Assembly (NCBI GenBank): GCA_963681505.1
Contig: OY811989.1
Coordinates: 2,052,986-2,116,985 of the forward strand
Direction of reading: 5' to 3'
Length of the DNA: 64,000 nucleotides
Origin: Eunapius fragilis
Lineage: Eukaryota; Porifera; Demospongiae; Spongillida; Spongillidae
In this document: piece after piece, positions 17,101 through 61,106 of the stretch
How positions within the stretch are numbered: the first letter of the stretch is position 1
Layout: each line of letters starts with the position of its first letter
Notes under the pieces: generated by a model
Told to the model about the DNA's origin: nothing
Database searches by the model: none
Seen by the model: only the letters and a program-made list of their open reading frames with translations
Position numbers and translations under genes: made by a program

Positions 17101-20100
17101 TAATAGACATTGCGTCAGGACAATTATGGAATATTACCCAGTAAGTGGAGGTGGTATGGTGGTGAAGGGAGGGTATGGTGATGGTGGGCTCTTCAATGTG
17201 AAGCAGAATCACACTGCTCTAATATGAGTGCATGCACTACAGGAGGTGCTGTCACAGCCAAAAACAAACTTTTCGTTGTTGTACAACCTGCCATCACATT
17301 CACAGCCACCACATTTAGGTCAGACACCCCAGTCTCAGCTACACGTAACACATTCTCAGTCATCACCCCCAAGTCTGCAGCCATCATGCACCACTACCTC
17401 GGACCCCCTCAGCAATTACACGAGGAGGCTCCAGAGAGACCAGAGGTATGGACTCACCATCTCTCAGGGCTCAAACATTGTGGACAAACACAACAGCTGT
17501 TGATAGTTAACCATTCTTCTAGGGAGAGCTGTGGTATGAAGTACCAGAGCTTAAATGCATGTTCCCGTGGGTTTTCCACACAGAAGGTGGTATTGAGCAA
17601 GGAAGAGGACTTAGCAGACGCAAGGTGGGAGGTCTGTTGACGCTTGTACTCTCGTGGCCACTCCATGCCTTTTCCTTGCAGCTCCCAGTTATTCATTATC
17701 AGAACACTTAATGTTCCGCACCAGCTTCAGGCAACTACACAGAAATGTTCATCACAACTACTGCGACAAGATCCTTTCCACATGTATACTGCTTCACCGA
17801 GAAGCACACTCCTTCCAATGCTCCCCAGTTGCTTGGAAGGGTCCTTCTCAACAAGGAGGAGTGTTCATGTTGAATGAGGTAGGTTCAAAGTGGGTGAGAT
17901 GGGCTAATGGTGTGGGGACCACACTAGCTGTATGTGGAGAGAAGTTAGTGTGTAGCATCTTTGGATTAACTATTCTTTTTCATTTAGAACACAAAAATGT
18001 TCAGTTTCCAAGATTGTACAGTTGGTCAGTTCGAAGTGGATGAGTTTGGCTGATGTTGAAGTGTATTTTATACCATGTCAGGCCAAATATTGTAATCGGC
18101 ATTGTGTCAGGACAATTTTGGAATGTTATCCAGTAAGTAGAGGTGGTATGGTGGTGATGGGAGGGTATGGTGATGGTGGGCTCTTCAATGTAAAGTGGAT
18201 CCTTCTCAAAGAGGTGGAGGAGTGTTCATGTTGAATGAGGTAGGTTCAAAGTGGGTGAGATGGGCTAATGGTGTGGGGACCACACTAGCTGCATGTGGAG
18301 GAAAGGTAGAGTGTAGCATCTTTGGATGAACTATTAATTTAGAACACAAAAATGTTCAGTTTCCAAGATTGTGCAGCGTACTGTAGGTCAGTTCAAAGTG
18401 GGTGAGGTTGGCTGATGGTGAGGCATATTTTATAACACGTCAGGCCAAATATTGTAATTGGCATTGTGTCAGAACAATTTTGAAATGTTACCCAGTAAGT
18501 GGAGGTGGTATGGTGGTGAAGGGAGGGTATGGTGATGGTGGGCTCTTCAATGTGAAGCAGAATCACACTGCTCTAATATGAGTGCATGCACTACAGGAGG
18601 TGCTTTCACAGCCAAAAACAAACTTTTCGTTGTTGTACAACCTGTCATCACATTCACAGCCACCACATTTAGGTCAGACGCCCCAGTCTCAGCTACATGT
18701 AACACATTCTCAGTCATCACCCCTGAGTCTGCAGCCACCATGCACCACTACCTCAGACCCCCTTAGCAATTACACGATGAGGCTCCAGAGGTTTGGACTC
18801 GCCATTTCTCAGGGCTCAAACATTGTGGACAAACACAACAGCTGTTGATAGTTAACCATTCTTTTAGGGAGAGCTGTGGTATGAAGTACCAGAGCTCTAA
18901 ATGCATATTCTCGTGTGTTTTCCACACTGAAGGTGGGATGAATTCCGTTTCCAAGAATGGGTTTTCCACACTGAAGTGGTATTGAGCAAGGAAGAGGGCT
19001 TAGCAGACGCTAGGTGGGAGGTCTGTTGATTCTTGTATACTCTTGTGGCCACTCCATGCCTTTTCCTTGCAGCTTCCAGTTATTCATTCTCAGAACACTT
19101 AATGTTCCACATCAGCTTCAGGCAACTACACAGAAATGTTCATCACAACTACTGCGACAAGATCCTTTCCACATGTATACTGCTCCACCGAGAAGCACAC
19201 TCCCTCAAATGCTTCTCAACTGTCTACTTTCCACACAGCAGGATGGTTCCCTGAACTGCTGGCAGTGATTCTTTATGTTGCCTAAAATGAGTTCCTGCTT
19301 CTAATAAACGTGGACGCAGACATTATAAATGGACGCCAATCAGCAAACTATGTGAATACTGAGAGTCTGGACAGGAACTTCAGCTCTGGCTGCGAGCAGA
19401 GAGGCACTCTACTAAACTAGGTACCAAGAGTTTCTCCCCGCCTAATGGTAAAAAGCAGATCACATACCCCATCTCTCCGGCACAGGAGGGCCTCTATGAT
19501 AAGGCTTGGGCTTGCAGAATGTTGTGCTGATTTAATGGCATTGCCACTAACACCAGTCAAACAACGGGAGGCTCTGAAATCTCCAAACACCCACTCACTT
19601 CTCCCCCAATGATTCCCACGGTTTGCCCAACTCAGAACTCATACCACAGACTACTTCAGTATACTGCACACTGTCCTCCCTTAAGACACAGCTAGTGGAC
19701 CCTCTGGCTTGAGAAGTTAGCACATTTTTGATGCTCTGGAAGCCACCCCGCCTAAACCCTCTAACCCTAACCCTAAGCCACCACGCCTAAACCCTCTAAC
19801 CCTAACCCTAAGCCACCACGCCTAAACCCTCTAACCCTAACCCTAAGCCACCACGCCTAAACCCTCTAACCCTAACCCTAAGCCACCACGCCTAAACCCT
19901 CTAACCCTAACCCTAAGCCACCACGCCTAAACCCTCTAACCCTAACCCTAAGCCACCACGCCTAAACCCTCTAACCCTAACCCTAAGCCACCACGCCTAA
20001 ACCACTGGCAAAAATGCTCGTAAATGTAATCTTTTGGCAAAGTGGTAAGGTTCCAGCATGCAGAAGTCACTACCAACTGTGATGTTAGACGGTGAAGATT

Positions 20101-24152: not shown

Positions 24153-24213
24153 CCTCAAACCTGGGGCGCGCTATCTAGAATAAGTTCGCGCTTTGTGAAA
24201 GAGGCGGGGCTTC
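24153..24213. promoter_or_regulatory. Bidirectional promoter/5'UTR region PLRG1-ABCB8
   Basis: Only 61 bp separate the two start codons. The interval is GC-rich beside AT-rich flanks, with gggcgcgc and a GC-box-like gaggcggggc at about 24200-24210. No TATA box is seen. Transcription start sites probably extend into each gene's first exon. Confidence 0.6.
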
Positions 24214-27200
24214 ATGTGGCGATTTTGCGGTGTTAAGTTGCCAATCCTTTCCCTCAGTAAAGTGTCAACGCGCCTCAGGGCAATCCATGTTCCTCGAATA
24301 GTTCACCCTGCGTGGGAGGGATGGGTAGGTCGGGCCGTACGCGGACTGCGCGAGTCCAAGGAATGGCGCTCTCACCTCCAAATTAGCATCCCTCGAGTCG
24401 CCGCTGTGCCGTCGTTTGGGTTAGCTTGCCATCTGTTGTTCTCGCACCGTACCGTTGCGAGTTGCAAACGAACCCCGAGTCATCCGTCGAGATTGCGTCA
24501 CAGGAAATTTCAAGATCCAAAATTCGACTGGTCACTCTTTTGGAAGTTCCTTTCTCCAGATTTGGTATACCTGTGCCTGGCTGTCTTGGTGAGGCTAGCA
24601 AATGAAGCTATGCGAGCGTTATTTACACCAAAAACTTTCGTTTCATCACAGAGCGCGGTGGTAGTGGCCGTGCTGAACTTCCAGATACCGCTGTTTCTCG
24701 GTCAGCTGGTGAACATCGTGGCGGCTTTAGAGCCAGGCAAGCAGCTGTCCTTTTATGCCGCTCAACTCGTCCAACCTGGGACGAAGCTGTTTGCACTTTA
24801 CTGTGTTCAAGTAGGTGGGGACGCGATGGCTGCAGCCGTTACTATCCCAGCTCTGCTTGCGCCCTTGTAGTGCGTCGGTACCTTCTTCTACATCTACCTG
24901 CTGTCAGTGGTGGGGGAAAGGTTCGCCCTGAGACTGAGGGTGCACCTCTTCAGAGCCCTTGTTGAGCAGGACATTGCCTTCTTTGATGGCCACAAGACTG
25001 GAGAATTGGTGAACAGGTGAGAGGATGATGGGAGAGGGGAGGAGGTAGGGTGGGAGAGGGGAGTGGTGATGTGGGAGAGGGAAGGAGATAAGGTGGGAGA
25101 GGGGAGTGGTGATGTGGGAGAGGGGAGGAGGTAGGGTGGGAGATGAAGGCATCTGGTGATGTGGGAGAGGGGAGTAGTGATGTGGGAGAGGGAAGGAGAT
25201 AAAGTGGGAGAGGGGAGTGGTGATGTGGGAGAGTGGAGGAGATAAGGTGGGAGAGGGGAGGAGATAAGGTGGGAGAGGGGAGGAGATAAGGTGGGAGAGG
25301 GGAGTGGTGTTCATAGTCAAAGGACTGTGGACGGCTTAGGGTTACGACACTGCCTCATAGTGCTAAGGTGTAAGTAGTAACAACACCTCATAGTGCTAAG
25401 GTGTAAGTACTAGCACCACCGCATAGCCCTAAGGTGTAAGTACTAACACCATCTCATAGTGCTAAGGTGTAAGTAGTAACACCTCCTCAGAGTGCTAAGG
25501 TGCAAGTAGTAACACTACCTCATAGTGCTAAGGTGTAATTAGTAACACCACCTCAGAGTGCTAAGGTGTAAGTAGTAACACCACCTCATAGTGCTAAGGT
25601 GTTAGTAGTAACATCACCTCAGTGCTTAGGTGTAATTAGTAACACCACCTCAGAGTGCTAAGGTGCAAGTAGTAACACTACCTCATAGTGCTAAGGTTAA
25701 GTAGTAACACCACCTCAGTGCTAAGGTGTAAGTAGTAACACCACCTCATAGTACTAAGGTGTTAGTAGTAACACCACCTCATGGTGCTAAGGTGTAAGTA
25801 GTAACACCACCTCATAGTGCTAAGGGTAAGTAGTAACACCACCTCATAGTGCTAAGGTGTAATTAGCAACACCACCTCATAGTACTAAGGTGTAATTAGT
25901 AACTGCCTGATTGTGCTGGGGACACCGCCACCTGATAAAATCATTGTGCTAGTGTTTAGGTGATGACACTTCCATATGGCGCTAAGTTATAGTTGATGAC
26001 ATCACCTCATGGTGATAAGTTATAGTTGATGACATCGCCTTGTGGTGCTAAGTTATAGTTGATGACACCACCTCATGGTGCTAAGTTATAGTTGATGACA
26101 TCGCCTCATGGTGCTAAGTTATGGTTGATGACATCACCTCATGGTGCTAAGTTATAGTTGATGACATCGCCTTGTGGTGCTAAGTTATAGTTGATGACAT
26201 CACCTCATGGTGCTAAGTTATGGTTGATGACATCACCTCATGGTGCTAAGGTGTAAATGACTACACCCACCTCATGTTTCAAGGTTGTCAGCAGATGTCC
26301 AGGACTTCAAGAGTTCCTTCAAGGAGGTTATCAGTCATGGTCTACGCAGCTTCACACAGACCGTTGGATGTGTGGGCTCCCTGTTCTTCATCTCCCCACA
26401 AATGACAGCAGTGGTGGGGGTGTCTCTCCCCCTCATGATAGCTGTGGGATCAGCTCTCGGCCACGTCTTGAGGAAATGGTCTCGTGATGCACAGGAGCAG
26501 GTGGGGTATCATGTGGGGGAGGGGAGGATGGGGTAGGGGAGGGGACATTGGAGCCTTGACTTTTGGCATTTCCGTAGGTCTCAGTGGCAACGGGGGTAGC
26601 AGATGAGGCGTTGAGCAACATCCACACCGTGAGGTCATTTGCAATGGAGCAGCAGGAGTGCATGTATGTACGTGTCCAAGTATGCCGTATATGTGTGGTG
26701 TGTGTACGTGTGCAAGTATGCTATGTGTGGTGTACGTACGTGTGCATGTATGTAGTATGTGTGGTGTATGTACATGTGCACATATTGTGCTATGTATATG
26801 CTGAACCCTTTCCCCACAGACTGTATGAATCAGAACTGCGGAAGTCGTGCTGGCTGAATGAGAAGCTTGGTGCAGGCATAGCTGTGTTCCAAGGGCTCTC
26901 CAACCTGGCCATCAATGGACTGGTCCTAGTGGTTGTCTCCCATGGGGGCGTGCTCCTGGCGACCAATCAGCTCACAGCTGGAGACCTCATGTCCTTCCTT
27001 GTGGCCACACAGATCATCCAGAGGTGACCCCTCCCTCTTTCCCCTAACATCCTTCACTCCTTATCTATGGCTCGCATACCTTAGATATCTACCTGCACAT
27101 GACTTGGTCCCTCCTCTCCCCCTCCTCCACTTCCACTCCTTCCTCTCCCCTCCTCCCCTTTCAGGAAAGGAGGGGAGGGAAGGAAGGTAGGAGGGAGAGG

Positions 27201-30200
27201 AAGGGGAGGAGAGGATGGAGAGGAGGAGAGGAGAGGAAGGGGAGGAGGGGCCTCCCACCCCTTCCTCTCCTCCTCTCCCTCCACTCCTTCCCTCCCTTCC
27301 TCTCCTCTCTCTCCACTCCTTCCCTCCCCTCTCTTAAAAGATTACCCCTCACCATCCATTGCCCATCATGCCTTCACTGTCACTATCATTTTACCTTCAC
27401 TGTCACTGTTGTCCAGATCCCTAGGAAACCTATCACTCATATTTGGTCAGACTGTTCGTGGCCTAAGTGCTGGTGCCAGGGTGTTTGAGTACATGAAACT
27501 CCACCCCTCTGTATCTCTGAGAGGTGGGCGGAGCTTGTCTGAGGATCACATCCAGGGGAAGGTGGAATTTAAGGGAGTTCATTTCACCTACCCCTCAAGG
27601 CCTGAGCAGGTGACCTCTGGGTGTTTTGCTGTCATCTGGATTGAAAAGTCATTTTCTGTCCTTTCTCTCCCTCCTTCCCCTCCCCCTCCCTCTTCCCCCT
27701 CCTTCCCTCCCCCTCCTTCCCCTCCCTCTTCATCCCTCCCTCCCTTCTTCCTCGGGATAAAGCCTATTCTGACAGATTTTAACCTGCACATTCCCCCTGG
27801 CAAGGTTACTGCACTGTGTGGTGTCTCTGGTGCAGGTGAGTGCTGTGTGCACCTGTGTGTGTACATATGTGTGTGTGGGTGTGCGTGTGTGTGTGTGCGC
27901 GCATGGTTGTATGTGTGTGTTTGTACGTACATGCATGTGTGCATGTGTGTGTGAGCTATGCCTGTAGTTACGTCTCACTTATACACCACACACATAAAAC
28001 TACAATCACACAGGTAGTGAATGGGTGGGCTGTAATTAGATATGCTATACCAGCCATACATTAACCACCACCCCGACTGATGTTATCATGGTTGCCTTTC
28101 CTGTTCCTCCTTCCCACACACTCACCCACACACTAGGCAAGTCCACAGTAGCTGCATTGCTGGAGAGGTTCTATGACCCCCAGGCCGGGGATGTCCTCAT
28201 AGACGGGCACACCCTGAGGGAGCTGGACCCCTCATGGCTGAGGGAGAATGTGATAGGGTTCATAAAGCAGGAGCCAGTCCTGTTCGGTACCACGGTGATG
28301 GAGAACATCCGCTACGGCAGGCCAGCTGCCACAGATGAAGAGGTACCATATGTGATGGTGGGGTGAGGGGAGGAGGAGGAAGTTAAGGTGGCATTTGGGA
28401 GAGGGGGTTCATAAGATCCATGTCCGAAAAAATTTTAATTCAAATCCTGATCATGTAAAAAAAAAAAAAAAAAAACAAGGGGATTACGTCTGTAATCAGG
28501 AATTTATGAAAATAGCATACCTGAAATTAGCAAGTTCATGACATCATAGGTATACTACAGACCTGGTAGTTTTCATAGATACCTGATGTCATGTTCCATA
28601 GTTGCTCTCGTTTGCTTATTTTTGCTTCCACTTATTTTTGCTTCCACTTGAGAAGCTGCTAAAACATAATTTGACACACTCAAATTAAATACACAATTAT
28701 GTCCAAAATACATACACATCCTTAGCTAGATACTTATTTCACCACATGGCCCCAAATACCTTTAACTTGAGATATGGCTCTGTGCATCCTGTGTGTAGTG
28801 ATATTAGAGGTTGCCTAGTCACTGATCATAAGAGGTACATTGCATCTTTTGCGCAAATGGTCCTCATTGTTTTAATAGCCATGCAATTACACCGCAGACA
28901 CATGGTTTTAGAGGAGTTAAAAGTTAGTACCATTGTATGCAGAATCATCATACTGTCAATTATCCTATTTATTTCAATGATCCTATTTGCTTCAATGATC
29001 CTATTTGCTTCTATGATCCTATTTACTTCAATGATCCTATTTGCTTCTATGATCCTATTTGTTTCAATGATCCTATTTGCTTCAATGATCCTATTTGCTT
29101 CAATGATCCTATTTGCTTCTATGATCCTATTTACTTCAATGATCCTATTTGCTTCTATGATTCTATTTGCTTCTATGATCCTATTTGCTTCAATGATCCT
29201 ATTTGCTTCAATGATTCTATTTGCTCAGGACTATGATCCTATTTGCTTCAATGATCCTATTTGCAAAGCTGATGGCCAGTAACTATACCTCTAGTTCTCA
29301 GTGATTTGGTGATTTATTTAATGCATCCAAGGCATGACTTGGCAAAGGGCACTGTTATGATTCACAGCTTCATTGACGTCATAGACCGAAATTTTTATCA
29401 GGCATGACTCGTTCAGAAAGTGAAATAACAAAAAGAATACTTATGCTCTAGTGTGCCTTTGCATAACCTTTGGCCTTTGCTCAGGTCTTTGATGCAGCAA
29501 GAAGGGCCAATGCCCACGACTTCATCTGCAGCTTTCCAGATGGTTACCAAACCTTGGTGGGAGAGAGAGGCCATGCAGTGTCCGGGGGACAGAAACAGAG
29601 GTGTGCCCCATTAACCTCTTCTGTACTGCTTTTCCATCAACCAGTTCTTTGCTGCTATGTATGTTTGTTTGCTATGAATTTATTTTTAAGGATTGCCATA
29701 GCTCGTGCATTGGTGAAGAATCCAAAGGTACTGATCTTGGATGAGGCCACCAGTGCCCTGGACACACAGTCAGAGAAGATGGTCCAAGAAGCCCTGGACA
29801 AAGCTGCAGAAGGTTAGTGGTGGTGTTCATGACTTATATGGAATGAGTGTAATTTGTGATGAGGTGCGTATATGTGTGCGTGTGTATGGTGTGTGTAGCC
29901 TTACATGTAATTTGTATGGGGGGGAGGGAGTGATGGGTTCACTACATCTGGCCACCTCCCACCTCTGTTTTCATGTTATGCGTATACATATCCAAGTGTG
30001 CTAAAGATCTGTCGCATATGAACTCGGTACCGTTTTTGTTTGAAAGGGTTTTTGAAAACCTTATTTTTCAGGTACCGTGTAACCATTTCTTTCCCAACTT
30101 TATACACCTATTTCCCCATCCCTTTTGTACATACGGTACCATTATGATAGCATAGAATCACCCCCCTGGCCGTATCCAAGGTCTGATACCTCACTGGGAC

Positions 30201-31626
30201 AAAACGTACCATAACTTCGGAAACAAACATAAATTTAATGCCAAACTTTAAACACACGTAAGAAAATGGTGTCCAAACACATGGTAAGTTTTCGCAATAT
30301 CTTTTGAATGATGGTTCGGGCGATGCTTAGTGTCAAACGCCATGCAGCCGGTGAAACAATTTATAAATTTTCATACGTGCCACACCTCCATTTCTGCGTG
30401 ACGTCACGAGGACTACACATGGAAGGTAAGTACGAGGGGCTGCAATCAACACCGCTGCACAAACAACACCTATTTGCTCGCGACAAAGAATGTGTGCTCC
30501 CAGTACGGTTCAGAAGGTACTAGATGAAGCCTTAAGCGAAGTTGAACTACGCAACCCTATTACCAGTACTAAAGGTCGACCACCATTCGCTTTGGATGTA
30601 GGCCATATTACCTATATACGTCAGTTTGTACGAGAACAAACACATTGTGGACAGCCAGTTACACTCGCGCATATGCAAAACCATCTGTCATCTAGTACCT
30701 TCTGAACCGTACTGGGAGCACACCCAAACATGTTTGCAACGATTGTTATAGTTTGGCCTTTAACAACTACCCTTCCAGCCTTGCGTTCATCACGGAAATA
30801 GGTGAATGCGCGTACTATGGATTCTTTGTCGCGAGCAAATAGGTGTTGTTTGTGCAGCGGTGTTGATTGCAGCCCCTCGTACTTACCTTCCATGTGTAGT
30901 CCTCGTGACGTCACGCAGAAATGGAGGTGTGGCACGTATGAAGATTTATAAATTGTTTCACCGGCTGCATGGCGTTTGACACTAAGCATCGCCCGAACCA
31001 TCATTCAAAAGATATTGCGAAAACTTACCATGTGTTTGGACACCATTTTCTTACGTGTGTTTAAAGTTTGGCATTAAATTTATGTTTGTTTCCGAAGTTA
31101 TGGTACGTTTTGTCCCAGTGAGGTATCAGACCTTGGATACGGCCAGGGGGGTGATTCTATGCTATCATAATGGTACCGTATGTACAAAAGGGATGGGGAA
31201 ATAGGTGTATAAAGTTGGGAAAGAAATGGTTACACGGTACCTGAAAAATAAGGTTTTCAAAAACCCTTTCAAAGTCATTATCAAAAACGGTACTGAGTTC
31301 ATATGCGACAGATCTTTAGTATCTGATCACCTCCCATGACCCAATTATGACCACCTGATCATCATCACCCACACCTCATCCCCATCAGGTCGTACAGTGA
31401 TAATCATTGCTCATCGTCTGAGCACCATCCAGTCTGCACACCAGATAGCTGTCCTTCACAGAGGTTGTCTGGTAGAGGTATGCCCCATGGAGGTGTTGTT
31501 GCATTGTGGTGAGCCATTGAATGATGTTTAACACTGGTGCAGGTGGGCACACACACGGAGCTGCTCAAGAAAAATGGCCGATATGCTGCCATGGTTACCA
31601 GACAGCTGCTCGCTGAGCAGCAGTGA
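24214..31626 (+). CDS. ABCB8: ABCB8-like mitochondrial ABC half-transporter
   Basis: Half-size ABC exporter of the mitochondrial inner membrane (the family's ABCB8/MITOSUR is linked to iron export and the mitoKATP channel). Twelve exons: 24214-24810, 24871-25016, 26284-26500, 26578-26663, 26820-27023, 27417-27609, 27763-27835, 28137-28342, 29485-29600, 29691-29812, 31389-31477, 31543-31626. All are GT-AG and in phase, 2133 nt, 710 aa, close to the human length. Residues 1 to about 100 are basic and serine/arginine-rich, fitting a mitochondrial presequence. The transmembrane domain includes [10 protein letters not shown] and [13 protein letters not shown]. The ATPase domain has Walker A GVSGAGKST (split by intron 7), signature VSGGQKQR, Walker [13 protein letters not shown] and H-loop IIAHRLST. 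All catalytic motifs are intact. Head-to-head with PLRG1. Exons 9-10 and parts of introns are duplicated at 46160-47430. Confidence 0.96.
25021..25312. repeat. Purine-rich ~21-bp minisatellite, ABCB8 intron 2
   Basis: Irregular copies of gtgggagaggggagtggtga and gaggagataag units directly after the exon 2 donor. Confidence 0.88.
25340..26275. repeat. 33-bp minisatellite in two subfamilies, ABCB8 intron 2
   Basis: About 18 units like tagtaacaccacctcatagt + gctaaggtgtaag (25340-25920), then about 9 units of a sister type built on agttgatgacatcacctcat (25970-26260). The array ends only a few bases before exon 3 (26284). Most first-type units carry gtaagtag, matching a 5' splice-site consensus on the sense strand. 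Confidence 0.93.
28343..28967. other. ABCB8 intron 8, left part; source of a duplication
   Basis: Non-coding. About 28475-28935 recurs at about 46495-46915 in the same orientation, with small indels. Confidence 0.7.
28968..29270. repeat. 18-bp minisatellite, ABCB8 intron 8
   Basis: About 17 copies of ttcaatgatcctatttgc (or ttctatg variant). The 6-residue periodic ORFs it creates in several frames are a by-product of the 18-bp period. Confidence 0.93.
30004..31316. mobile_element. 1.3-kb foldback Tc1/mariner-like element in ABCB8 intron 10
   Basis: Two long inverted arms (about 30004-30525 and 30688-31316; termini aagatctgtcgcatatgaac) face each other and are flanked by TA (30002-30003, 31317-31318), the target duplication of the Tc1/mariner superfamily. 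Each arm carries a piece of the same protein. The right arm (minus strand) reads [20 protein letters not shown] then [12 protein letters not shown]; the left arm reads [19 protein letters not shown] then [14 protein letters not shown]. This looks like the helix-turn-helix N terminus of a transposase. The left arm lacks about 100 bp present in the right arm. No DDE catalytic domain is present, so it is non-autonomous. Confidence 0.75.
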
Positions 31627-33403: not shown

Positions 33404-33529
33404 GTCCGCAGATCACACCGGACAGGCCGTGCGCCATCTGTCGCCGCCCGTCGACCAGCGCCTGCTCGCTTACGACTAGCCGGGCAATGTGCGCGAGCTG
33501 GAGAACTGCGTGGAACGCGCGGCATCACC
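33404..33529 (+). pseudogene. Fossil fragment of bacterial NtrC-family (sigma-54 activator) gene
   Basis: A GC-rich 126-bp island in AT-rich DNA. One frame reads AVRHLSPPVDQRLLAYD, stop, PGNVRELENCVERAA. The family consensus around the end of the AAA+ domain is (L/Y)xWPGNVRELENxxER, so the in-frame TAG (33477-33479) sits where Trp (TGG) is expected. In bacteria this domain remodels sigma-54 RNA polymerase. Here there is no start, no remaining domain and no homolog nearby. Similarity ends abruptly on both sides. It could be a relic of horizontal transfer, or a symbiont read mis-assembled into the contig. Confidence 0.7.
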
Positions 33530-33668
33530 CCCCATTGTATCATTGTCATGTGTGCATATGGCAGTCAAAGCGTGCGAGCATTAATTTCATGTCCCCAAAG
33601 ACAACATCAATGCAAGCATCTAAGCAAAATGTATCACACAGCTCCTAAATGTATAAATCTGCATTGTG

Positions 33669-36600
33669 CTAAGTATCTTGAGTATCTTTAAATTGGAACA
33701 GTTTTGATGTAAATTCAAACTGAGAACGTATTCCACTTCTCTGGCGGTTCTCCAATATCTCTTTACACTGGAAGTTGAGTGAATGTGCATACTGAAGCTC
33801 AACAATAAACGAACGTATCAATTCTTGCTCAGCACCACTGCAACTCTGCTGTAGTTGAACCATTTGGTTCCCATACTGTGCAGCTCTATAGATGCTTGTC
33901 TTTTGCTGTGATAGAAGTTCCAAGCATCGTTCATTGTCCAGATGCATTTGGTAAAGTACATCTTTCTGCACCTGTGTGGACACGAGCTGATGCTTCAATT
34001 TGAGCTCCTGATACTGAGCTATTTGCTTAGAGTTCATTTGTAGTGAGTCCAGGTGTTGCATGTTAGCTTTTTCTAGCTGTTCAAGCTTTTTACAACATTC
34101 CTCATATGTGGGGTCCTGTAAAAAAAAACAGCTTTTGTGATGTCTAGATATTTAATAGAAATTTAGTGTTATGCACTTGTTGTCCTCCAACCAATTGATT
34201 TGCTGCTGTTGGCTGTGGTTGTTGAGGAGGTTGCTTCTTCGTTGCATCACCCACTGCTCATAAAATATGTACATGTAATTGCATACTTTAACTGTAATAA
34301 AAATTGACAAAACGTGTAGTACATAATAATGCATTATGAAGAAAATCATTTATTATTTATGATAGAATGCAGTACTCCTGGCACTCGGAGGGAGGAATGC
34401 CACAAAAATCAATTTTTTGCAGTCAATGGTGGCAGAACAATTCTGATAATAATAGGACAGTGTCTGAATTACCGTAAGCAGCCTTGTGAAATTCATCAAA
34501 GTGCAATGATTATCTTAATCAACTTCACTAAATAAATTTAGCACAGATAAAGATGTTAATTTAAATTCAAAACATTTCATACAATTTTGTGGATAATAAA
34601 TAAACAAGCATCACGACATTGCAACTAGCACTGCTGGGTCACCTTCAATTTGAAGGCGACTTGAATTTGAAAATACAATGTGACACCACCCAACATGCGA
34701 AATAATCCGCTACGGTGCTAACCACTTTGGTTTTATTAACCATCCATAGAGAGCGTGGCACTGAATTATAATGTTTCATACGACTATACAATAATGAATT
34801 TGCTACATTACGCATGCTAATTAAAGATTGGCCGATACAATATAACTATGTATATAATAATAATTATTATTATATAGACATGCAAGACTCGATTTGAACA
34901 CCTCACCTCCGTTTTGTCGTTTGGGAGGATCCTTTGGTGATTCTGAGTGTAAAAGTGCCGGGCGCGGAGGTTGCTGCTGTCGTTGCTGCAGTGATGCAGA
35001 CTGTAGAATATATAAAGCCTTGTGCATGGTCACTAAATCATTTGTATACACCATGTATTCAGTATTGTGGTATCTACATGGTCATGGCATGCGATACGTT
35101 GACGTATAAATCCCGATTTGTTTTTATTCAGGAGACCCTATATATATTGAAACGCTGCATGTTGAGTGCGAAATAATCACACTGCGTGTACAGGTATAGG
35201 GTTGCCAAATATTGGATATGAGTAGAAATTGAAATTGTGCAGAACAATCGCATATCACCACTTACCATTTCTTTATCAACATCGCTCTTCCATCGCTCGA
35301 CTTTATCTTTCACTTTCGTTATTTCATTCATTGTTGGAATAGGGTCACGTTTTAGCCAATCCAGGGCCATTTTGCACTTTTGCGTAACATCTTCTTTCTT
35401 CTTTGCGTCTAATTCACCGCGGATTATTCGTTGTATTTCGTAGATATTGCTTTCTATATCATTCAAGAGAGCACTTCGATCGCCTAAATCTTTTGACTGA
35501 TCGTCAATATAAGTGGTTTGAGAAGACTGGGGACAACCCGTAACTAATTGGTTTGCTTTCCAGGGAATAGTTGTCAATAACTGGATGTTTATTAAATCGC
35601 TCGCCGCATCAGTTGGACTTTGTATAGGCCAAAGCTTGGCGGCAAGAACAGCAGCTCCATGGACAGCAACTTCTTCAGCGCTGAGAATTCGGTTCGACTT
35701 GATACCAAAACTATCGATCACATCTCGAACACACTTTAAGCGAGTCGATCCTCCCACCAGTATAACTGCAGCTCGTTCGGTAGATGAAATAGCTGACATT
35801 GCCCTTTTCATAATGTTTTTCATTTTTCCAAGCATTTTTTGAACATCTTCCATCTCCGTAATATCATCTTGAGTAATTCTGATGATATCGTCTTTACCTG
35901 CTACATCATCTAGTTTGATCGAAGTTTCTTTGCATGACGATAGATTTTTTTTTGCTCTTTCACAAAGGATGGAAAGGTGCATGGACGTTTGACCAGATGG
36001 GTCTGGTAGAATATTTAGTTTTTGTTGAAGCCACGTAACAATGGCTGCGTCAATATTTACTCCTCCGATGTTTGGATCCCCGTCGCTGAATATTGGTTTA
36101 ATACCGTTTGGAGAAATATTTACGACAGAGACGCCCAGTGACCCTCCTCCGAGGTGAACTGCGATGACGTATTGTGCGTTGCATTTCGTTGCAGAGATAC
36201 TGTAGGCTATAGTCGCTGATAGAGGTTTTTCGATGAGATTCACTTCCGTAAATCCTGCCATCTCCGCTGATTTTAGTGCATCTTTGACGAACGACTCGCC
36301 ACAGTTAATTGGAATGGTTATAACCGCACGAACAACGTTCTCTTGCAAGTAATTTGAGGCCAGTTCTCTGACCTTATACAATACGGCAGAATATACCTCA
36401 ATGGGATGTATGTCTCTTTCCATGTCCTGATAAGCCACCTGAAATACTGGCCTCTTCTCTCCTCCGTCTTTAACTCTGAACGGCCAGTGACTGTGGCGTA
36501 TCTGTTGAGTTATCTCCTCGTAAGAGCGACCGATCAATCGCTTTGGACAAAAGAACGTCGCCTCAATGTTTTCTACAACTCTGTTTAGGGCTAGGTCCCC

Positions 36601-36750
36601 GACAATCGTATCGCTCCAGCTTTTAAACGATACGTAGCAAGGTGTTTGTCTGCTTTGCGTTTCGCTGGGTATGATTTCAAAAGCATTATTGCTTCGAAAG
36701 ATTCCAACTCGACAGTAAGTATTTCCAAAGTCAATTCCAATTGCAGCCAT
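33669..36750 (-). CDS. Divergent Hsp70-like ATPase lacking the beta-sandwich domain, with C-terminal coiled coil
   Basis: Four exons: 35266-36750, 34907-35000, 34177-34253, 33669-34115 (GT-AG, phases 0/1/0, 2103 nt, 700 aa). Residues 1 to about 374 are an Hsp70 nucleotide-binding domain: GIDFGNTYCRVG, PKRLIGRS (Lys70 matches the family's catalytic Lys71), IEKP, VGGSTRLK, EEVAVHGAA. The phosphate-2 loop is GGGSLGVS instead of GGGTFDVS, so the catalytic Asp is replaced by Gly206, and Thr13 by Asn10; ATP hydrolysis may be lost. The roughly 115-residue substrate-binding beta-sandwich is missing: only about 55 residues separate the ATPase fold from a lid-like helical stretch (430-490; QKCKMALDWLKRD). 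Exons 2-3 encode a P/Q-rich linker; exon 4 a helical, Gln/Leu-rich probable coiled coil. Exon 3 is the least certain exon. A paralog lies at 43014-45307. Confidence 0.82.
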
Positions 36751-37315
36751 TGTAGTCTCTCAAATGATCTAATTGTCCTTGTTGAAGTGCATGATGTCAT
36801 TTCCTCAACTCGGTGCATGAAAGCATTTAATTTCTGCACTCGCGCGTAAATGAGAGTGTGAAGTGGTGTGATGGTACTTTGGTGTGAATATTGATGCATG
36901 CTCATATAGAGATGATGTCAATGCGATAGAGGGTTCAATGACGCCATCATTTTGCTCAAAGGGTGTTGCAGTACAGAGTATACGGACGCGAAAAGCATGC
37001 AATGCAAATGGAATTTAACTCACGATGCCCATGCAGGATATGCTTTCGTAAATAAAAAGCACGAGCTTTGAAAAATAACCATTGTTGCATTTAGCTCACC
37101 CCGGCCTGTTATTGTTATCTTAAACGAATTGGCCTGGCGTGCTGCGCCATGCACAAGAATCCAAAACGCGTAGGAACGTTTGCTTATAGAAAAACAAGGT
37201 TGTACGGAGTACTATACGATTTTGCATGCAAGCATGTTTTTATTGTTACTGCCTCCTAGCTCTATTACTATAAACGTGATGTTGATGATAATGATAACGA
37301 TGCATGCACACACAC

Positions 37316-37935: not shown

Positions 37936-39732
37936 ATGGCGGAGTCTAATTCCAAAAGCTGCGCCATTGGCATTGACCTAGGAACAACGTATAGCTGTGC
38001 TGCAATCTTTCTGGACGACAATCTGATTACGATCGAAAACGATCTAGGAGATCGCACCACTGCTAGCTGGGTGAGCTTCACCGAACATGAGTGCATTGTG
38101 GGCAACGCTGCCAGAGCGGCTTGCTGTAACCCAAGCAACATGATTTATGATGCAAAGCGAATGATTGGTCGGCAATTTTCAGACTCCACTGTCCAAGAAG
38201 ACATAAAGCATTGGCCATTTAAAGTTGTGAACATTGCCACTAAACCCAAAGTTCAGGTAGAGTGCAAAGGAAACAAGAAACTCCTCTCTCCGGAAGAGAT
38301 CTCGTCCAACATACTGAAATATCTTAAAGAGTGTGCGGAACTAAAACTAGGCGAAAAGGTGACTCAAGCCGTTGTAACAATACCAGCGTATTTCAATAAT
38401 TCCCAGCGCCAGGCTACCATGGACGCCGCACGACTCGCAGGTCTTGAGGTACTGAGACTATTGAGTGAACCCTTTGCTGCCGCCATGGCTTATGGCCTGG
38501 GCATGAAATATCAGTTCACAGGGAATATTGTTGTCTATGATCTGGGTGGAGGCACATTTGACGTCTCCATATTGAAAGTAGACGGCGGCTCTTTTGATGT
38601 CAAATCGACCAATGGAAACACTCACCTAGGAGGAGAAGACTTCACGAACCGACTGCTAAACTATGCCATTGTCGAATTCAAAGCAAAGGGAATTGTAGTA
38701 TCTGAAAACAAAAAACCAAAACTACGCGAGCAGTGCGAAAAGGTGAAGCGAATGTTTACTGCAAGAAGACACTGCGATATTGAATATGAGGATGCAAAAA
38801 TCAATGTTAGCAGAGCTTGTTTTGAAGAGCTCAATCATGACCTGTTCGTCTCCACCATAGAATGCGTCAAAATGGCTCTAACCGATGCCAAACTAAAAAC
38901 ATCGGACATTCAAGAAGTAGTTATGACAGGAGGTTCCACTCGCATCCTCAAAATTAAACAAATGGTTCAGGACTTCTTCGACGGTAAGAAGCTTACTATG
39001 TCCATCAACGCCGACGAAGCAGTGGCTCATGGCGCTGCAATACAGGCTGCCATCCTCACCGGTGACACGGCGAGTCCAAAGTTAAAGGACCTTGTTTTAA
39101 GCGACGTAACTCCTTTATCTTTGGGTGTAGAGACCAAAGGTGGGGATATGACCATCGTTGTGAGGCGTAATTCTCGTATTCCTCTCTCTGTAACCCACAA
39201 CTTCACAACTTGCGACGACAATCAAACGTCCGTTAAATTCTCCGTGTACGAAGGAGAACGAGCGGAGGTCAAGGATAATACCTTTCTCGATGCATTTGTG
39301 CTCGCGCCTATCCCGCCAGCCCTCCGCGGTGTGCCGTCCTTGGTCACAAACTTCAATATCAGTAGTGACGGTATCTTAACTGTCACAGCCACCGAGAAGG
39401 CGACGGGTCATTGCAATAAGGTCGTGATAAAGAAAGAGGGAAGAATGAGTGCTGTTGAAGTCGACCAATGCTTAGAGGAATCAAAGAGGATGAAGGCTAT
39501 AGATGACGAGACACGTTTAAAACAAGAAGCAAGGAACAATTTGGAATCGCTTGCGCACACTATAAAACATAAAGTCGTGGGATCTGTTCTTGCTGACAGC
39601 AGGAAGGAATTGGTCGATAAATGTAATCAAGTTTTGGCCTGGCTGAAACAATCCGAGTTAATGGACAAGAGTGTATATGAAGTGAAACACAAAGAACTCG
39701 ATAGGATGCTGAATAAATCGAATCAAAAGTAA
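37936..39732 (+). CDS. Canonical intronless Hsp70 chaperone (cytosolic type)
   Basis: 598-aa Hsp70 from ATG 37936; an in-frame GTG at 37924 is not needed. The chaperone binds exposed hydrophobic segments of clients in an ATP cycle driven by J-proteins. ATPase domain: AIGIDLGTTYSCA near the N terminus, DAKRMIGR, IPAYFNNSQRQATMDAARLA, DLGGGTFDVSIL with the catalytic Asp, GGSTRI, DEAVAHGAA. The beta-sandwich is complete (DVTPLSLGVETKGGDMT; YEGERAEVKDN; GVPSLVTNFNISSDG) and is followed by the helical lid. The C terminus ends MLNKSNQK and lacks the EEVD motif that binds TPR co-chaperones, and has no KDEL. It is shorter than typical cytosolic Hsp70 (about 640 aa), consistent with loss of the disordered tail. 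Lack of introns is common for inducible Hsp70. It lies between two Hsp70-like genes. Confidence 0.95.
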   Translation: MAESNSKSCAIGIDLGTTYSCAAIFLDDNLITIENDLGDRTTASWVSFTEHECIVGNAARAACCNPSNMIYDAKRMIGRQFSDSTVQEDIKHWPFKVVNIATKPKVQVECKGNKKLLSPEEISSNILKYLKECAELKLGEKVTQAVVTIPAYFNNSQRQATMDAARLAGLEVLRLLSEPFAAAMAYGLGMKYQFTGNIVVYDLGGGTFDVSILKVDGGSFDVKSTNGNTHLGGEDFTNRLLNYAIVEFKAKGIVVSENKKPKLREQCEKVKRMFTARRHCDIEYEDAKINVSRACFEELNHDLFVSTIECVKMALTDAKLKTSDIQEVVMTGGSTRILKIKQMVQDFFDGKKLTMSINADEAVAHGAAIQAAILTGDTASPKLKDLVLSDVTPLSLGVETKGGDMTIVVRRNSRIPLSVTHNFTTCDDNQTSVKFSVYEGERAEVKDNTFLDAFVLAPIPPALRGVPSLVTNFNISSDGILTVTATEKATGHCNKVVIKKEGRMSAVEVDQCLEESKRMKAIDDETRLKQEARNNLESLAHTIKHKVVGSVLADSRKELVDKCNQVLAWLKQSELMDKSVYEVKHKELDRMLNKSNQK

Positions 39733-43013: not shown

Positions 43014-45307
43014 ATGGCTGCAATTGGAATTGATTTAGGAAATAGTTACTGTCGAGTTGGAATCTTCCGAAGCAATAATGCTTTTGAAATCATACCCAGC
43101 GAAACGCAAAGCAGACAAACACCTTGCTACGTATCGTTTAAAAGCTGGAGCGATACGATTGTCGGGGACCTAGCCCTAAACAGAGTTGTAGAAAACATTG
43201 AAGCAACGTTCTTTTGTCCAAAGCGGCTGATCGGTCGCTCTTACGAGGAGGTAACCGAACAGATACGCCACAGTCACTGGCCGTTCAGAGTTAAAGACGG
43301 AGGAGAGAAGAGGCCACTATTTCAGGTGGCTTATCAGGACATGAAAAGAGAAATACATCCCATTCAAGTATATTCTGCCGTATTGAATAAGGCCAGAGAA
43401 CTAGCCACAAATTACTTGCAAGAGAACGTTGTTCGTGCAGTTATAACCATTCCAATTAACTGTGGCGAGTTGTTCGTCAAAGATGCACTAAAATCAGCGG
43501 AGATGGCAGGATTTATTGAAGTAAATCTCATCGAAAAACCTCTAGCAGCGACTATAGCCTACAGTATCTCTGTAACGAAATGCAGCGCACAACACGTCAT
43601 CGCAGTTCACCTCGGAGGAGGGTCACTGGGCGTCTCTGTCGTAAATATTTCTCCAAACGGTATTCAACCAATATTCAGCGACGGGGATGCGAACATCGGA
43701 GGAGTAAATATTGACGCAGCCATTGTTACGTGGCTTCAACAAAAAGTAAATATTCCACCAGACCCATCTGGTCAAAGGTCCATGCAGCTTTCCATCCTTT
43801 GTGAAAGCGCAAAAAAAAATCTATCGTCGTGCAAAGAAACTTCGATTAAATTAGATGTAGCAGGTAAAGACGATATCATCAGAATTACTCAAGATGATAT
43901 TACGGAGATGGAAGATGTTCAAAAAATGCTTGGAAAAATGAAAGACATTATGAAAAGGGCAATGTCAGTTATTTCATCCACCGAACGAGCTGCAGTTATA
44001 CTGGTGGGTGGATCGACTCGCTTAAAGTGTGTTCGAGATGTGATCGATAGTTTTGGTATCAAGCCTAACCGAATTCTCAGCGCTGACGAAGTTGCTGTCC
44101 ACGGAGCTGCTGCTCTTGCCGCCAAGCTTTGGCCTATACAAAGTTCAAATGATGCAGCGAGCGATTTAATAAGCATCCAGTTATTGTCAACTATTAATCA
44201 TTGGAAAGCGAACCAATTAGTTACCGGTGGTCCCCAGGCTTCTCAAACCACTGTTTATATTGACGACAAGTCAAAAGATTTGCGCGATCGGTATGATCTC
44301 TTGAATGAGATAGAAAGCAATATCTACTCCATGCAACGGTTAATCAGTGAATTAGACACAAAGAAGAAAGAAGATGTTACGCAAAAGTGCAAAATGGTCC
44401 TGGATTGGCTAAAACGTGACCCTATTCCAATATTGAATGAAATAACGAACATGAAAGATGAAGTCGAGCGATGGAAGAGCGATGTCGGTATTGAAATGGT
44501 AAGCGGTGAAAAGTAATTTTCTAACCGCATGAGTATGCAATGACATAAGCAACCCTAACCCCTAACTGTATGAGTTATGCACAATTTATTTTAAAAATAA
44601 TATTGAAAGAATCATTACCATGGATTTAATGAATTTAATACAGTGCATTGGTTAGGGAAATATGGATGGTATAATAATGCAATCACCCTTGTAATAGGTG
44701 TAAAAAATCAGAAACGACATAAAATTAATGCCTGAATGAAAATTATTAAATTTGAATTTCAAAAACAAAACTTGAAATTACTAAATGACCACAACACTTT
44801 AATACAATTTGATTTTAATAAGTCACTTTTTCATATTTAAGTGGTGCTTTTTACTCACTTTATAGTAGACTTTTTAAAAATGCTTATTAAAATACTTGAA
44901 ATATTACTAACTCACTATTATGCCTGCTAACTCTGATCCGCAGCTTGTGCTATTTATAAGTATTATCTTACTGTGATTATAGAGCTTTGGATATGTTGGT
45001 TTATAAGGGTTTTGATATAAATCACTTACAACAAAATAGCATTTACTGTTATGTATAAAACATAAACTGCATCAAATGCTCAGTTACATTCAATCCTACG
45101 TTGATTTAGATGTGTTCATTTGCAAGCATAATTATACATTGATTATAAATTTACTAGAATTTGTAATGTAATTATATACAAAATCCATTAAATCTATTTT
45201 GTAGTCTGCATCACTGGAACCACACCCACAACCACACACACAACCTGAAATTTCACAAGAATTGCTCTCAGAATTGCCAAATGATCATCCAATTCTAACT
45301 AATAGAG
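43014..45307 (+). CDS. Hsp70-like paralog 2 (beta-sandwich-less); 3' end uncertain
   Basis: Exon 1 at 43014-44498 is 1485 nt, exactly as long as exon 1 of the 33669-36750 gene and highly similar. It again has GIDLGNSYCRVG, PKRLIGRS, GGGSLGVS (catalytic Asp replaced), VGGSTRLK, and no substrate-binding beta-sandwich before the lid-like helix. Unspliced, the frame would end EMVSGEK, stop at 44516. A donor-like gtaagc at the same codon as the paralog's donor, and an exon at 45205-45307 starting tctgcatcactg (same start as the paralog's exon 2), indicate splicing. Exon 2 encodes SASLEPHPQPHTQPE and more, then a gtgagg donor. The following acceptor candidates (about 45395 and 45576) lead quickly to stop codons, and no coiled-coil exon was found. 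The C terminus is therefore lost or different. Confidence 0.75.
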
Positions 45308-46160
45308 GTGAGGTTTTCAAGCTATATAAATGCATATCGTACACACCCCTGCTTTCTACACACACATGCACATATTCTACTACTACATTTATAGGATCGA
45401 GGTGTCGAGGATATTGTCAATGTCATCTACTGTAATGCCGCAGGAAGTGCACATGTACAGTAATGCCATGCGCATATGCCCAAATAAAGTCATGCTGTGT
45501 ATTGTATGCCCATAATGTTTTTTGTGTATGATAGAGTACATTAATGCACTACATGCATTCATGGTTTGCATGCAGAAACTGGACATCCTTTCTGCTGAAT
45601 ATGGAGCAGGTCCATGTGGGGGAAAAATGCATACCTCTGAATTGGAGAATGGTGTTGAAAGTTAAGAGATAATAGGAACGTATTAAAAGAACTGATGGGG
45701 CTTCCATGCAATGATTCAATTTAATGCCTAAGACATTATGGACCGAATGTGTAAGAAACCATATGATCCCTCTGTACCAGATACTACAAATTCGATTTGT
45801 AATGGTATTCTACCTTTAATAGCCCTCAAAGAATAATGGAATTTTCTAAACTGCAATACCTTTACTATGTAAAACGTCCATCTCAGACACAATATTTATT
45901 ATTTGAATGAGCATGCACAAAAGTGGGATCCACCCTCACGAAGCACACTGCTGGTGTAGTTGCACCATGAAAGATTCACATTCTTGCGACACATAAAAAA
46001 ATATCTTTGAGATAAAGGTGTACCAGAAAGTGTACAACCCAAAACTACAGGGCAAAATCTTATCATCTGTGAGTTAGAGAATGGAGCATGCACAACAAAA
46101 AGATAAGGATGTCGTCATGGATACCAAGTTCATTTTCTCTTAAGCTATTTAACCACGTAA
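45308..46160. other. Spacer after Hsp70-like gene 2, no gene seen
   Basis: Contains possible remnants of the missing 3' exons of Hsp70-like gene 2 but nothing that can be supported. Confidence 0.3.
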
Positions 46161-47430
46161 TTCATTTCACCTACCCCTCAAGACCTGAGCAGGTGATGTC
46201 TGGCTGTTTTGCTGTTGTCTGATTTCAAAGCCAGTTTTCTGTTCTTTCTCTCCCTCCTTCCCCTCCTCCTCCCCCTCCTTCCCTCCCCTCCCCTCTTTCC
46301 TGTGTACATGTGTGTGTGTGCGTGTGTGTGTGTGAGTGTGTGTGGGTGTGTGGTATGTGTGTGTGTGTGTGTGTACATGTGTGTGTGAGCTATGCCTGTA
46401 GTTACATCTCACTTATACACCACACACATAAAACTACAATCACAGGTAGCAAATGTATGGGAGTGGGTGGGTGTAAAAAGTAAACAAGCAAACAAGGGGA
46501 TTACGTCATGTAATCAGGAATTTATGGAAATAACATACTTAAAATTAGCAAGTTCATGACATCATAGGTATACTACAGATCTGGTAGTTTTCATACGTAC
46601 CTGATGTCATGTTCCATAGTTGCTCTTGTTTGCTTATTTTTGCTTCCATCTGAGAAGCACTATAATTTGACACACTGAAATTAAATACACAATAATGTCC
46701 AAAATACATCCTTAGCTTGATACATTTTTCGCCACATGGCCCCAAATACCTTTAACTTGAGATATGGTGCTGGTTATGTGTAGTGATATTAGAGGATGCC
46801 TAGTCTCTGATCACTAGAGGTACATTGCATCTTTTGCAAATGGACCTCATTGTTTTGTTGTAATATTACACCACAGACACATGGTTTTAGAGGAGTTAAA
46901 AGTTATTTACATTGTATCCGTGAAGTAGGTACATGTGTGTGCAATTAACTTATGTGTACACACACACTTGCACACACACACACACACACACACATACACA
47001 CACACACATACACACACGCACCTCATCGCATTCCATAAGTCATGAACACCACCACTAACCTTCTGTAGCTTTGTCCAGGGCTTCTTGGACCATCTTCTCT
47101 GACTGTGTGTCCAGGGCACTGGTGGCCTCATCCAGGATCAGCACCTTTGGATTCTTCACCAATGCACGTGCTATGGCAATCCTTAAAAATAAAATCACAG
47201 CAAACAAACATACATAGCAGCAAAGAACTGGTTAGTGGAAAAGCAGTACAGAAGGGGTTAATGGGGCACACCTCTGCTTCTGTCCCCCGGACACTGCATG
47301 GCCTCTCTCTCCCACCAAGGTTTGGTAACCATCTGGAAAGCTGCAGATGAAGTCGTGGGCATTGGCCCTTCTTGCTGCATCAAAGACCTGAGCAAAGGCC
47401 AAAGGTTCTGCAAAGGCACACTAGAGCATA
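46160..47430. pseudogene. Rearranged partial duplicate of ABCB8 (introns 6-8 plus; exons 9-10 minus)
   Basis: 46165-46300 copies the end of ABCB8 exon 6 and start of intron 6 (ttcacctacccctcaaga); 46380-46460 copies intron 7 sequence; 46495-46915 copies intron 8 (28475-28935), all in plus orientation. Then 46985-47430 copies 29385-29890 in inverted orientation: exon 10 at 47060-47181 (122 bp, Walker [13 protein letters not shown]) and exon 9 at 47272-47387 (116 bp, signature VSGGQKQR), both on the minus strand, with exon lengths and splice sites kept. No Walker A exon or other exons are present, so it cannot encode a transporter. Confidence 0.85.
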
Positions 47431-48890
47431 AGTATTCTTTTTGTTATATCACTTTCTGAACGAGTCATGCCTGATAAAAATTTCAGTCTATGACGCATTA
47501 AATAAATCACTGTACAGGTTTAGCTGGCTAGAGTAAACTGGTGGCCTTGCCCTGGGAGCTAGGGTTATATAGCACTTATGACGTTTATGTCTGCACTAAG
47601 CTTGGCTGGTTACAAACCTGTTGGAGGGGTAATGTATTGCACTATTCACTGGGTGACTGAATGACGTTATATGACACATTTAATCCAACCCAATCTTTTA
47701 TCAGGTGGTTGCTATATCTTGAAATGATTATGTTATAGCAACCACCTTGTTGATTTTGGGATATGGCTACGTGGTATATGGCTACTTGAGACTGTCCAGT
47801 TGATTGCTGAGGGCAATAACAAGTAGCCCACATGCACATCCCCACATGCACATCCCCACATGCACATCCCCACATGCAAATCCCCACATGCACATCCCAC
47901 ATGCACATCCCCACATGCACATCCCCACATGCGCATCCCCACATGCACATCTCTACATGCACATCCCCACATGCACATCTCTACATGCACATCCCCACAT
48001 GCACATCCCTACATGCACATCCCCACAAGCACATGATAACCACCAAACAGGAGCTGATGGTATCACCAGATAGGGGAGTGGTGCTTTGGTGGAGGCCAGG
48101 TAGCAGCAGTGGTCTATAGTGCATACAGTTGATACCCTGCATTTTGGCCTTGCTAGCTAAGAACCGTGCGTACAGTTCTCTGGCTTCCGAGATTGACCAA
48201 CCATATAGCACCACTGATGCCTTTGAACTGATGAGAATGACCTAAGCAACACATTGCAACATATCTCTACTGCCAACAGATCCAAACTCTTAAACCCGTA
48301 TTCATCATCTATGGCAGGGTGTCCAATTGGACTGAACTGTCTTTGTTTTATGGCACTCACACCTGGAGTTAGCCATAGCCATGTCCTTGTAAGGTATGTA
48401 TGTGGCCAGGGTGATACAGAAGGGCGCAATGGCATGCCTGTGTCCCCTGGTGTGCATTAATTAATATCATTTGCTGGACAGCTGACATGAACGGCATGCC
48501 TGCATCACACAAACATATTTCACACAAACAGGCTATCACCACTCTTCCCCTGTGGGCAGGATTGTGAAAGAACAACTCTGCAGCTAAGGGGATAGATATC
48601 TTATGTCTCAGCATATATAGCTTTTGACACAACTTTGAAAGGTGACTGACATTCTGACACCCAAGAATTCCTCACACTCTTTAGCATGCCAATGAGACAC
48701 TCATTTTCATGCTATGAAAAGTCACCACTGGCCAAAATTGCACAGCAGGAAGTCACAGTGAACACAGAAGTGATATAGAATGATCATTATGCAGGGGCCT
48801 AATTAAGGCCCCCCCCCCCCCTCCCTCCCCTCCCCCTCCATCTCATAGTGCCAAGTTAATTGTGCCAGTAATGTTTTTAAGAGCATATCC
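47431..48890. other. Spacer between ABCB8 duplicate and kinase gene
   Basis: Holds the 14-bp minisatellite and several minus-strand open stretches (48157-48632) without a recognised domain; the latter could be a decayed element. No supported gene. Confidence 0.35.
47825..48030. repeat. 14-bp minisatellite (ccccacatgcacat)
   Basis: About 14 copies with minor variants (ctctacatgcacat, cacaagcacat). Confidence 0.93.
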
Positions 48891-61000: not shown

Positions 61001-61106
61001 CTATTATGCTAACGTAATTCTAGATAAAGCCCCCAACGGAGGGCAATGTTATTAATTTTTCAAGCAAAGCTACCGGTCTGGGGACGATACAAGCGGTTAG
61101 TTTCTA
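60977..61106. promoter_or_regulatory. Bidirectional promoter region GTF2E2-UNC45
   Basis: 130 bp between divergent start codons, no TATA box in either orientation. Includes half of the inverted repeat described at 60973-61000. Confidence 0.6.

Follow-up and report, generated by a model that had tools for sequence, protein, structure and literature searches.

The genes described here lie in a window of 64,000 nucleotides, the whole stretch of DNA that was analysed, from the sponge Eunapius fragilis (assembly GCA_963681505.1, contig OY811989.1, positions 2,052,986 to 2,116,985 of the forward strand). Two paralogous Hsp70-like genes, which we call A and B, flank a full-length Hsp70 in an inverted duplication, and both very probably encode ATPase-impaired Hsp70s without the β-sandwich part of the substrate-binding domain (SBD-β). 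The initial annotation of this DNA had described gene A and overlooked gene B; its statement that gene A adjoins a true Hsp70 is borne out by the Pfam match of the neighbour. The genes are laid out as follows, in window coordinates.

Gene A exon 1: 36750-35266, minus strand; nucleotide-binding domain (NBD, residues 1-373), spacer of about 45 residues and lid-like helices (residues 419-494)
Gene A exon 2: 35000-34907, minus strand; 94 bp, beginning of a proline/glutamine (P/Q)-rich linker
Gene A exon 3: 34253-34177, minus strand; 77 bp, P/Q-rich linker, with an alternative acceptor giving 34256; the weakest exon
Gene A exon 4: 34115-33669, minus strand; predicted helical hairpin, 148 residues plus stop
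Full-length Hsp70: 37939-39732, plus strand; 597 residues, no EEVD end, between A and B
Gene B exon 1: 43014-44498, plus strand; paralogue of A that shares its deletion and its active-site substitutions
Gene B exon 2: 45205-45307, plus strand; 103 bp

Exon 1 of gene A is a single open frame of 495 codons, with an ATG start and a good donor (ATG|GTAAGT) at its end. The Pfam HSP70 profile (PF00012) covers residues 3-375, corresponding to profile positions 1-377 of 599, and then ends; in gene B the match ends at residue 379. By its Hsp70-type NBD gene A thus belongs to the Hsp70 superfamily, and the AlphaFold2 model contains the Hsp70 ATPase fold, which the initial annotation had rightly called complete. 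Neither the Pfam profile nor the model revealed an interdomain linker or a β-sandwich in gene A, and the linker and SBD-β of a canonical Hsp70 were found in neither A nor B. In the model, residues 374-418 form no β-sandwich; they mostly have a predicted local distance difference test score (pLDDT) below 50 and hold two short helices (381-385 and 389-394). The absence of the β-sandwich claimed earlier stands, while the gap between NBD and lid is about 45 residues and not about 55. A multiple alignment hinted at a β-sandwich remnant in residues 376-418, a candidate that was rejected by shuffle tests: there was no excess over shuffled sequences either against the comparison sequence L001 (score reached by 55/1000 shuffles for A, 887/1000 for B) or against the neighbouring Hsp70 (896/1000 and 993/1000).

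The lid-like helix of the initial annotation is upheld in part. Aligned with the lid of the neighbouring Hsp70, the scores of A and of B were each equalled by 1 of 1000 shuffles, and phmmer weakly paired gene A residues 422-486 with HSPA2 residues 536-605 (9.7 bits). Alignment to L001 was weaker (50/1000 shuffles for A, 5/1000 for B), a mainly bacterial DnaK profile yielded only about 2-7 bits, and the predicted helices (419-446, 449-467 and 470-494) have block-mean pLDDT values of only 37-64.

Active-site residues were compared in an alignment of 11 rows from this one genome, namely the pair A and B, a frame with the NBD alone and eight further Hsp70 frames, with positions in Hsc70 numbering. 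A and B share the substitutions T13N, E175K, D199H, T204S, D206G, R155V, E231V and D232N. Among the nine other rows, E175, D199, T204, R155 and D232 are retained throughout, and T13, D206 and E231 in eight each, the exceptions being T13M in L009, D206N in L008 and E231Q in L010. Retained in A and B are D10, K71, R72 and the glycine loops G201-G203 and G338-S340. The catalytic role of Hsp70 active-site residues is established from Hsc70 mutants; the canonical set of D10, K71, E175, D199 and D206 is incomplete in A and B, in which three of its members are replaced. The T13N and D206G changes and the kept K71 of the initial annotation are all correct, yet that account overlooked E175K and D199H, and the damage is greater than it implied. 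Judged from these residues, the ATPase domain of A and B has probably turned into a pseudo-ATPase.

HSPA13/STCH carries a signal sequence for the endoplasmic reticulum. Gene A starts, judged by eye, directly in the NBD (MAAIGIDFG), leaving no room for such a sequence, and the match of residues 3-375 to the profile shows no STCH-type NBD insertion of about 50 residues. It is therefore, with E175, D199 and D206 all replaced, very unlikely that A and B are active or slow ATPases like HSPA13 with an altered catalytic mechanism, even though they retain K71 and D10 and HSPA13 is described as an active ATPase despite having no SBD (PMC9691929). Since no linker or β-sandwich was found and three catalytic acidic positions are replaced, the foldase cycle should not run, and the view, already put forward in the initial annotation, that the product would not be a classical foldase is well supported by the predicted proteins. 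The nucleotide-sensing role suggested there is hypothetical, the substitutions being more severe than that account supposed, and its scaffold role is one of the readings considered below.

Gene B shares 91.8% identity with gene A over the NBD in the alignment (89% in the genome search). The arms of the duplication pair 35241-36916 with 44522-42800 at 88.8% identity; further out, 29377-29895 pairs with 47495-46971 at 93.9%, with smaller paired pieces between. The outer pieces are as follows.

Left outer arm: 29377-29895, plus strand; piece of an ABC-transporter ATPase domain (Pfam ABC_tran, 32.9 bits)
Right outer arm: 46971-47495, minus strand; partner of 29377-29895

Over 493 aligned codons, A and B differ at 88 nucleotides and 54 amino acids. 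Their ratio of non-synonymous to synonymous change (dN/dS) is 0.54 (95% bootstrap interval 0.36-0.87), with 0.43 in the NBD and 0.69 for residues 374 to the end. These values bear on whether A and B are slowly decaying duplicates, under relaxed constraint and heading to pseudogenes: 0.54 looks high for an Hsp70 from general knowledge, the value for the C-terminal part is higher still, and exons 3 and 4 were not found by gene B. Against decay, only 1 of 300 bootstraps reaches a dN/dS of 1, stops stayed absent in only 149 of 5000 neutral simulations in which one copy received all the changes, all four indels in the A/B DNA alignment are of 3 bases, and the edges of exon 2 are kept in both genes. 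We consider decay unlikely. Given the dN/dS values, the indels and the simulations, exon 1 is under moderate purifying selection, although partly relaxed selection also fits.

Exons 1-4 of gene A join in frame to a predicted product of 700 residues with one stop, at its end; a direct join of exon 2 to exon 4 was rejected as it breaks the reading frame. Exon 2 is supported because gene B has a matching exon, identical in its first bases and similar in its donor context; with lengths of 94 and 103 bp, the two are in the same phase. Reading through the donor of gene B exon 1 would terminate the protein after VSGEK. Exon 3 has a donor that looks weak, and its limits are provisional, because other junctions at both ends also preserve the frame. 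In neither exon 2 nor exon 3 of A, nor in exon 2 of B, does the assumed frame have the best codon score of the six; in exon 4 it is the best of six, yet within chance (225/2000). Thus the three further exons of the initial annotation do join in consistent phase, but the codon scores are unfavourable for exons 2 and 3, and exons 3 and 4 derive from the gene model.

The 148-codon frame of exon 4 stays open in 2 of 20000 simulations. Folded alone, from a single sequence without an alignment, the exon is predicted as a helical hairpin with a mean pLDDT of 75.3, its two helices spanning 4-87 and 94-147. Its heptad-range periodicity was matched by 24/2000 shuffles, that of the first helix by 39/2000, and that of the second helix was unremarkable (741/2000). 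The coiled coil of about 149 residues claimed earlier survives as a predicted hairpin of 148 residues, which depends on the gene model and has no counterpart by gene B. Exon 4 matches only once in the 219-Mb genome. It had no match among PDB sequences at E 10 or in NCBIfam at 0.1, only sub-cut-off Pfam matches (YkoP, E 0.0022; DUF771, E 0.11), and of 303 Foldseek matches none reached E 0.001, the best being at 0.31.

Near gene B, no counterpart of exon 3 or 4 of A was found, and the longest open frame on the plus strand of 45320-46971 has only 86 codons. From exon 2 to the outer duplicated piece it is 1.65 kb in B and 5 kb, with exons 3 and 4, in A; owing to this shorter interval, the simplest reading would be a deletion in B that removed the region of exons 3 and 4, while gene A may also have gained its long helical tail. 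The outer comparison gave one further blastn match, of 33 bp, outside the gap in B. On the gene model, a P/Q linker and helical tail in gene A are plausible.

A rival explanation is a structural scaffold outside the chaperone cycle, in which the Hsp70 fold is kept only as a rigid adaptor and the tail targets or oligomerises it. The active-site changes common to both copies, the predicted hairpin and the linker, in which 23 of 57 residues are P or Q, agree with this. A pure scaffold would have no need of the retained D10, K71, R72 and glycine loops, however, and no tail exon was found by gene B; we regard a scaffold as rather unlikely.

A search with exon 1 across the 24 contigs (219 Mb) of the genome, in which 18 candidates were scored and at least 15 matches found, singled out only A and B; the others are ordinary Hsp70s at 26-36% identity. 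Gene A is 34-36% identical to cytosolic Hsp70s and 27% to the neighbouring Hsp70, and the idea that A and B are a recent copy of that neighbour was rejected on this identity. Among prokaryote genome contigs, 23 stretches matched the exon 1 pattern and none was confirmed as a relative; no stretch matched in viral contigs, where the neighbouring Hsp70 likewise found none. Several other Hsp70 frames of this genome are themselves unusual: those at L009:1378-3723 (also G203R, with coil-like TTTKGEL repeats) and L008:1378-3696, which carry the T13M and D206N changes noted above, have in-frame N-terminal extensions; the frame at L012:1492-2676 ends after the ATPase domain (388 residues, terminus SGSILN); and the divergent frame at L010:1240-3120, 26% identical to gene A, has an acidic N-terminal extension.

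Elsewhere in the window, a GC-rich segment at 33412-33535, about 135 bp past the stop of gene A, reads, apart from one stop, as part of a bacterial sigma-54 activator (Pfam AAA_lid_14, E 1.3e-9). It is matched by 19 of 72,556 plasmid records, the best at 88.5% over 52 bases, and its one match in the genome is itself; an insertion of bacterial DNA is possible. A large foldback (inverted-repeat) element was seen by eye at 30000-31320, close to where the ABC-transporter-like gene ends, and the frames 24199-24867 and 27103-27951 of the transporter region had no Pfam match. Similar open frames are repeated at 7399-18043, suggesting a tandem segment array; 52936-55096 is a minisatellite open in several frames with HTSTIPQGTSHLHHPTGH-like repeats; and 61104-63887 is a single open frame for an UNC45-like myosin chaperone (Pfam UNC45-central). 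The genome also holds 84 papain-family places, of which 12 were examined and four (L124, L125, L126 and L128) have Ser for the catalytic Cys, as in silicateins, which agrees with a siliceous sponge as the source. Several of the papain-family matches have internal stops and may therefore be spliced or broken genes.

As to function, we tentatively favour the explanation that A and B are atypical Hsp70s that regulate or dock with canonical Hsp70s. Having lost the β-sandwich and interdomain linker and kept lid-like helices, they could maintain, by NBD and lid, the general shape of an Hsp70 and in this form pair with a second Hsp70 or a co-chaperone. The pairing is modelled on Hsp110/Sse1, which works through its NBD and helical domain with a marginal ATPase (PMC8476630, PMC4753570); passages of PMC8476630 describe Sse as gripping Hsp70 with NBD and lid, and Ssz1 as a partner subunit with little or no hydrolysis, which would be the model for a partner role if hydrolysis is lost in A and B. 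It is because of these two precedents that a regulatory or docking role is preferred. Should the P/Q linker and hairpin of gene A be real, they would add oligomerisation or targeting. That A and B act on canonical Hsp70s at all is, by this analogy, possible but doubtful. A bolder version is improbable: a new class of animal co-chaperones in which a dead NBD plus lid would be a minimal Hsp110-like partner of real Hsp70s, capping them or exchanging their nucleotide, and would be tethered or polymerised by the linker and hairpin.

Several points weigh against a regulatory or docking role. Sse1p is described as requiring ATP binding, though not hydrolysis (PMC4753570), whereas in A and B several of the residues that surround the nucleotide are gone, and Ssz1 keeps SBD-β and has no SBD-α (PMC8476630), apparently the reverse of A and B. 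The lid helices are of low confidence and align weakly to L001 and to the mainly bacterial DnaK profile, and exon 4 lacks a counterpart near B. A tree of 18 rows, rooted for drawing only, gives A and B a provisional place at the end of a very long branch, with 2.85 changes per column, so ancestral interfaces may be gone. Finally, within 450 bp upstream neither A nor B has a heat-shock element (8 of 9 positions or better), and classical heat induction of the pair is unlikely. A 9-of-9 match occurred in all four cytosolic Hsp70 genes tested, one 8-of-9 match lay nearer the neighbouring Hsp70, and another was in one of two control stretches; strong Hsp70 up-regulation is described in a heat-stressed sponge in passages of PMC5082814.

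If our reading holds, the central substrate-gripping domain of an Hsp70 can be lost alone, with selection still acting on the parts at either side of it. The pair would then be a natural test of what an NBD and lid can do when no substrate is bound, and the animal Hsp70s would have a further, pseudo-ATPase branch.

In the open-licence literature searched we did not find this architecture described, and the main text of PMC12692333, on non-canonical metazoan Hsp70s, does not contain the words sponge, Porifera or Amphimedon. Compared with canonical cytosolic Hsp70s, A and B share the NBD fold but have no linker, β-sandwich or EEVD, and their catalytic residues are replaced. The parts they retain are those through which Hsp110/Sse1 works, although Hsp110 and Grp170 differ by their β-sandwich, which in Hsp110 carries long insertions. 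Ssz1 and human HSPA14, the latter with a partial loss of the SBD (PMC2266713), are likewise atypical Hsp70s with a reduced SBD. HSPA13/STCH resembles A and B as an Hsp70 ATPase core without an SBD, but it is described as an active ATPase with a 50-residue NBD insertion (PMC9691929, PMC2266713), whereas A and B, with no such insertion, show lid-like helices and an altered active site. Truncated cytosolic Hsp70s of plants (T1/T2) offer a similar lineage-specific loss of C-terminal parts, except that there the lid or C-terminal parts are lost and not SBD-β alone (PMC10687569). As far as these sources go, A and B differ from HSPA13, the plant truncated Hsp70s and the human set in the parts that were lost (PMC9691929, PMC10687569, PMC2266713).
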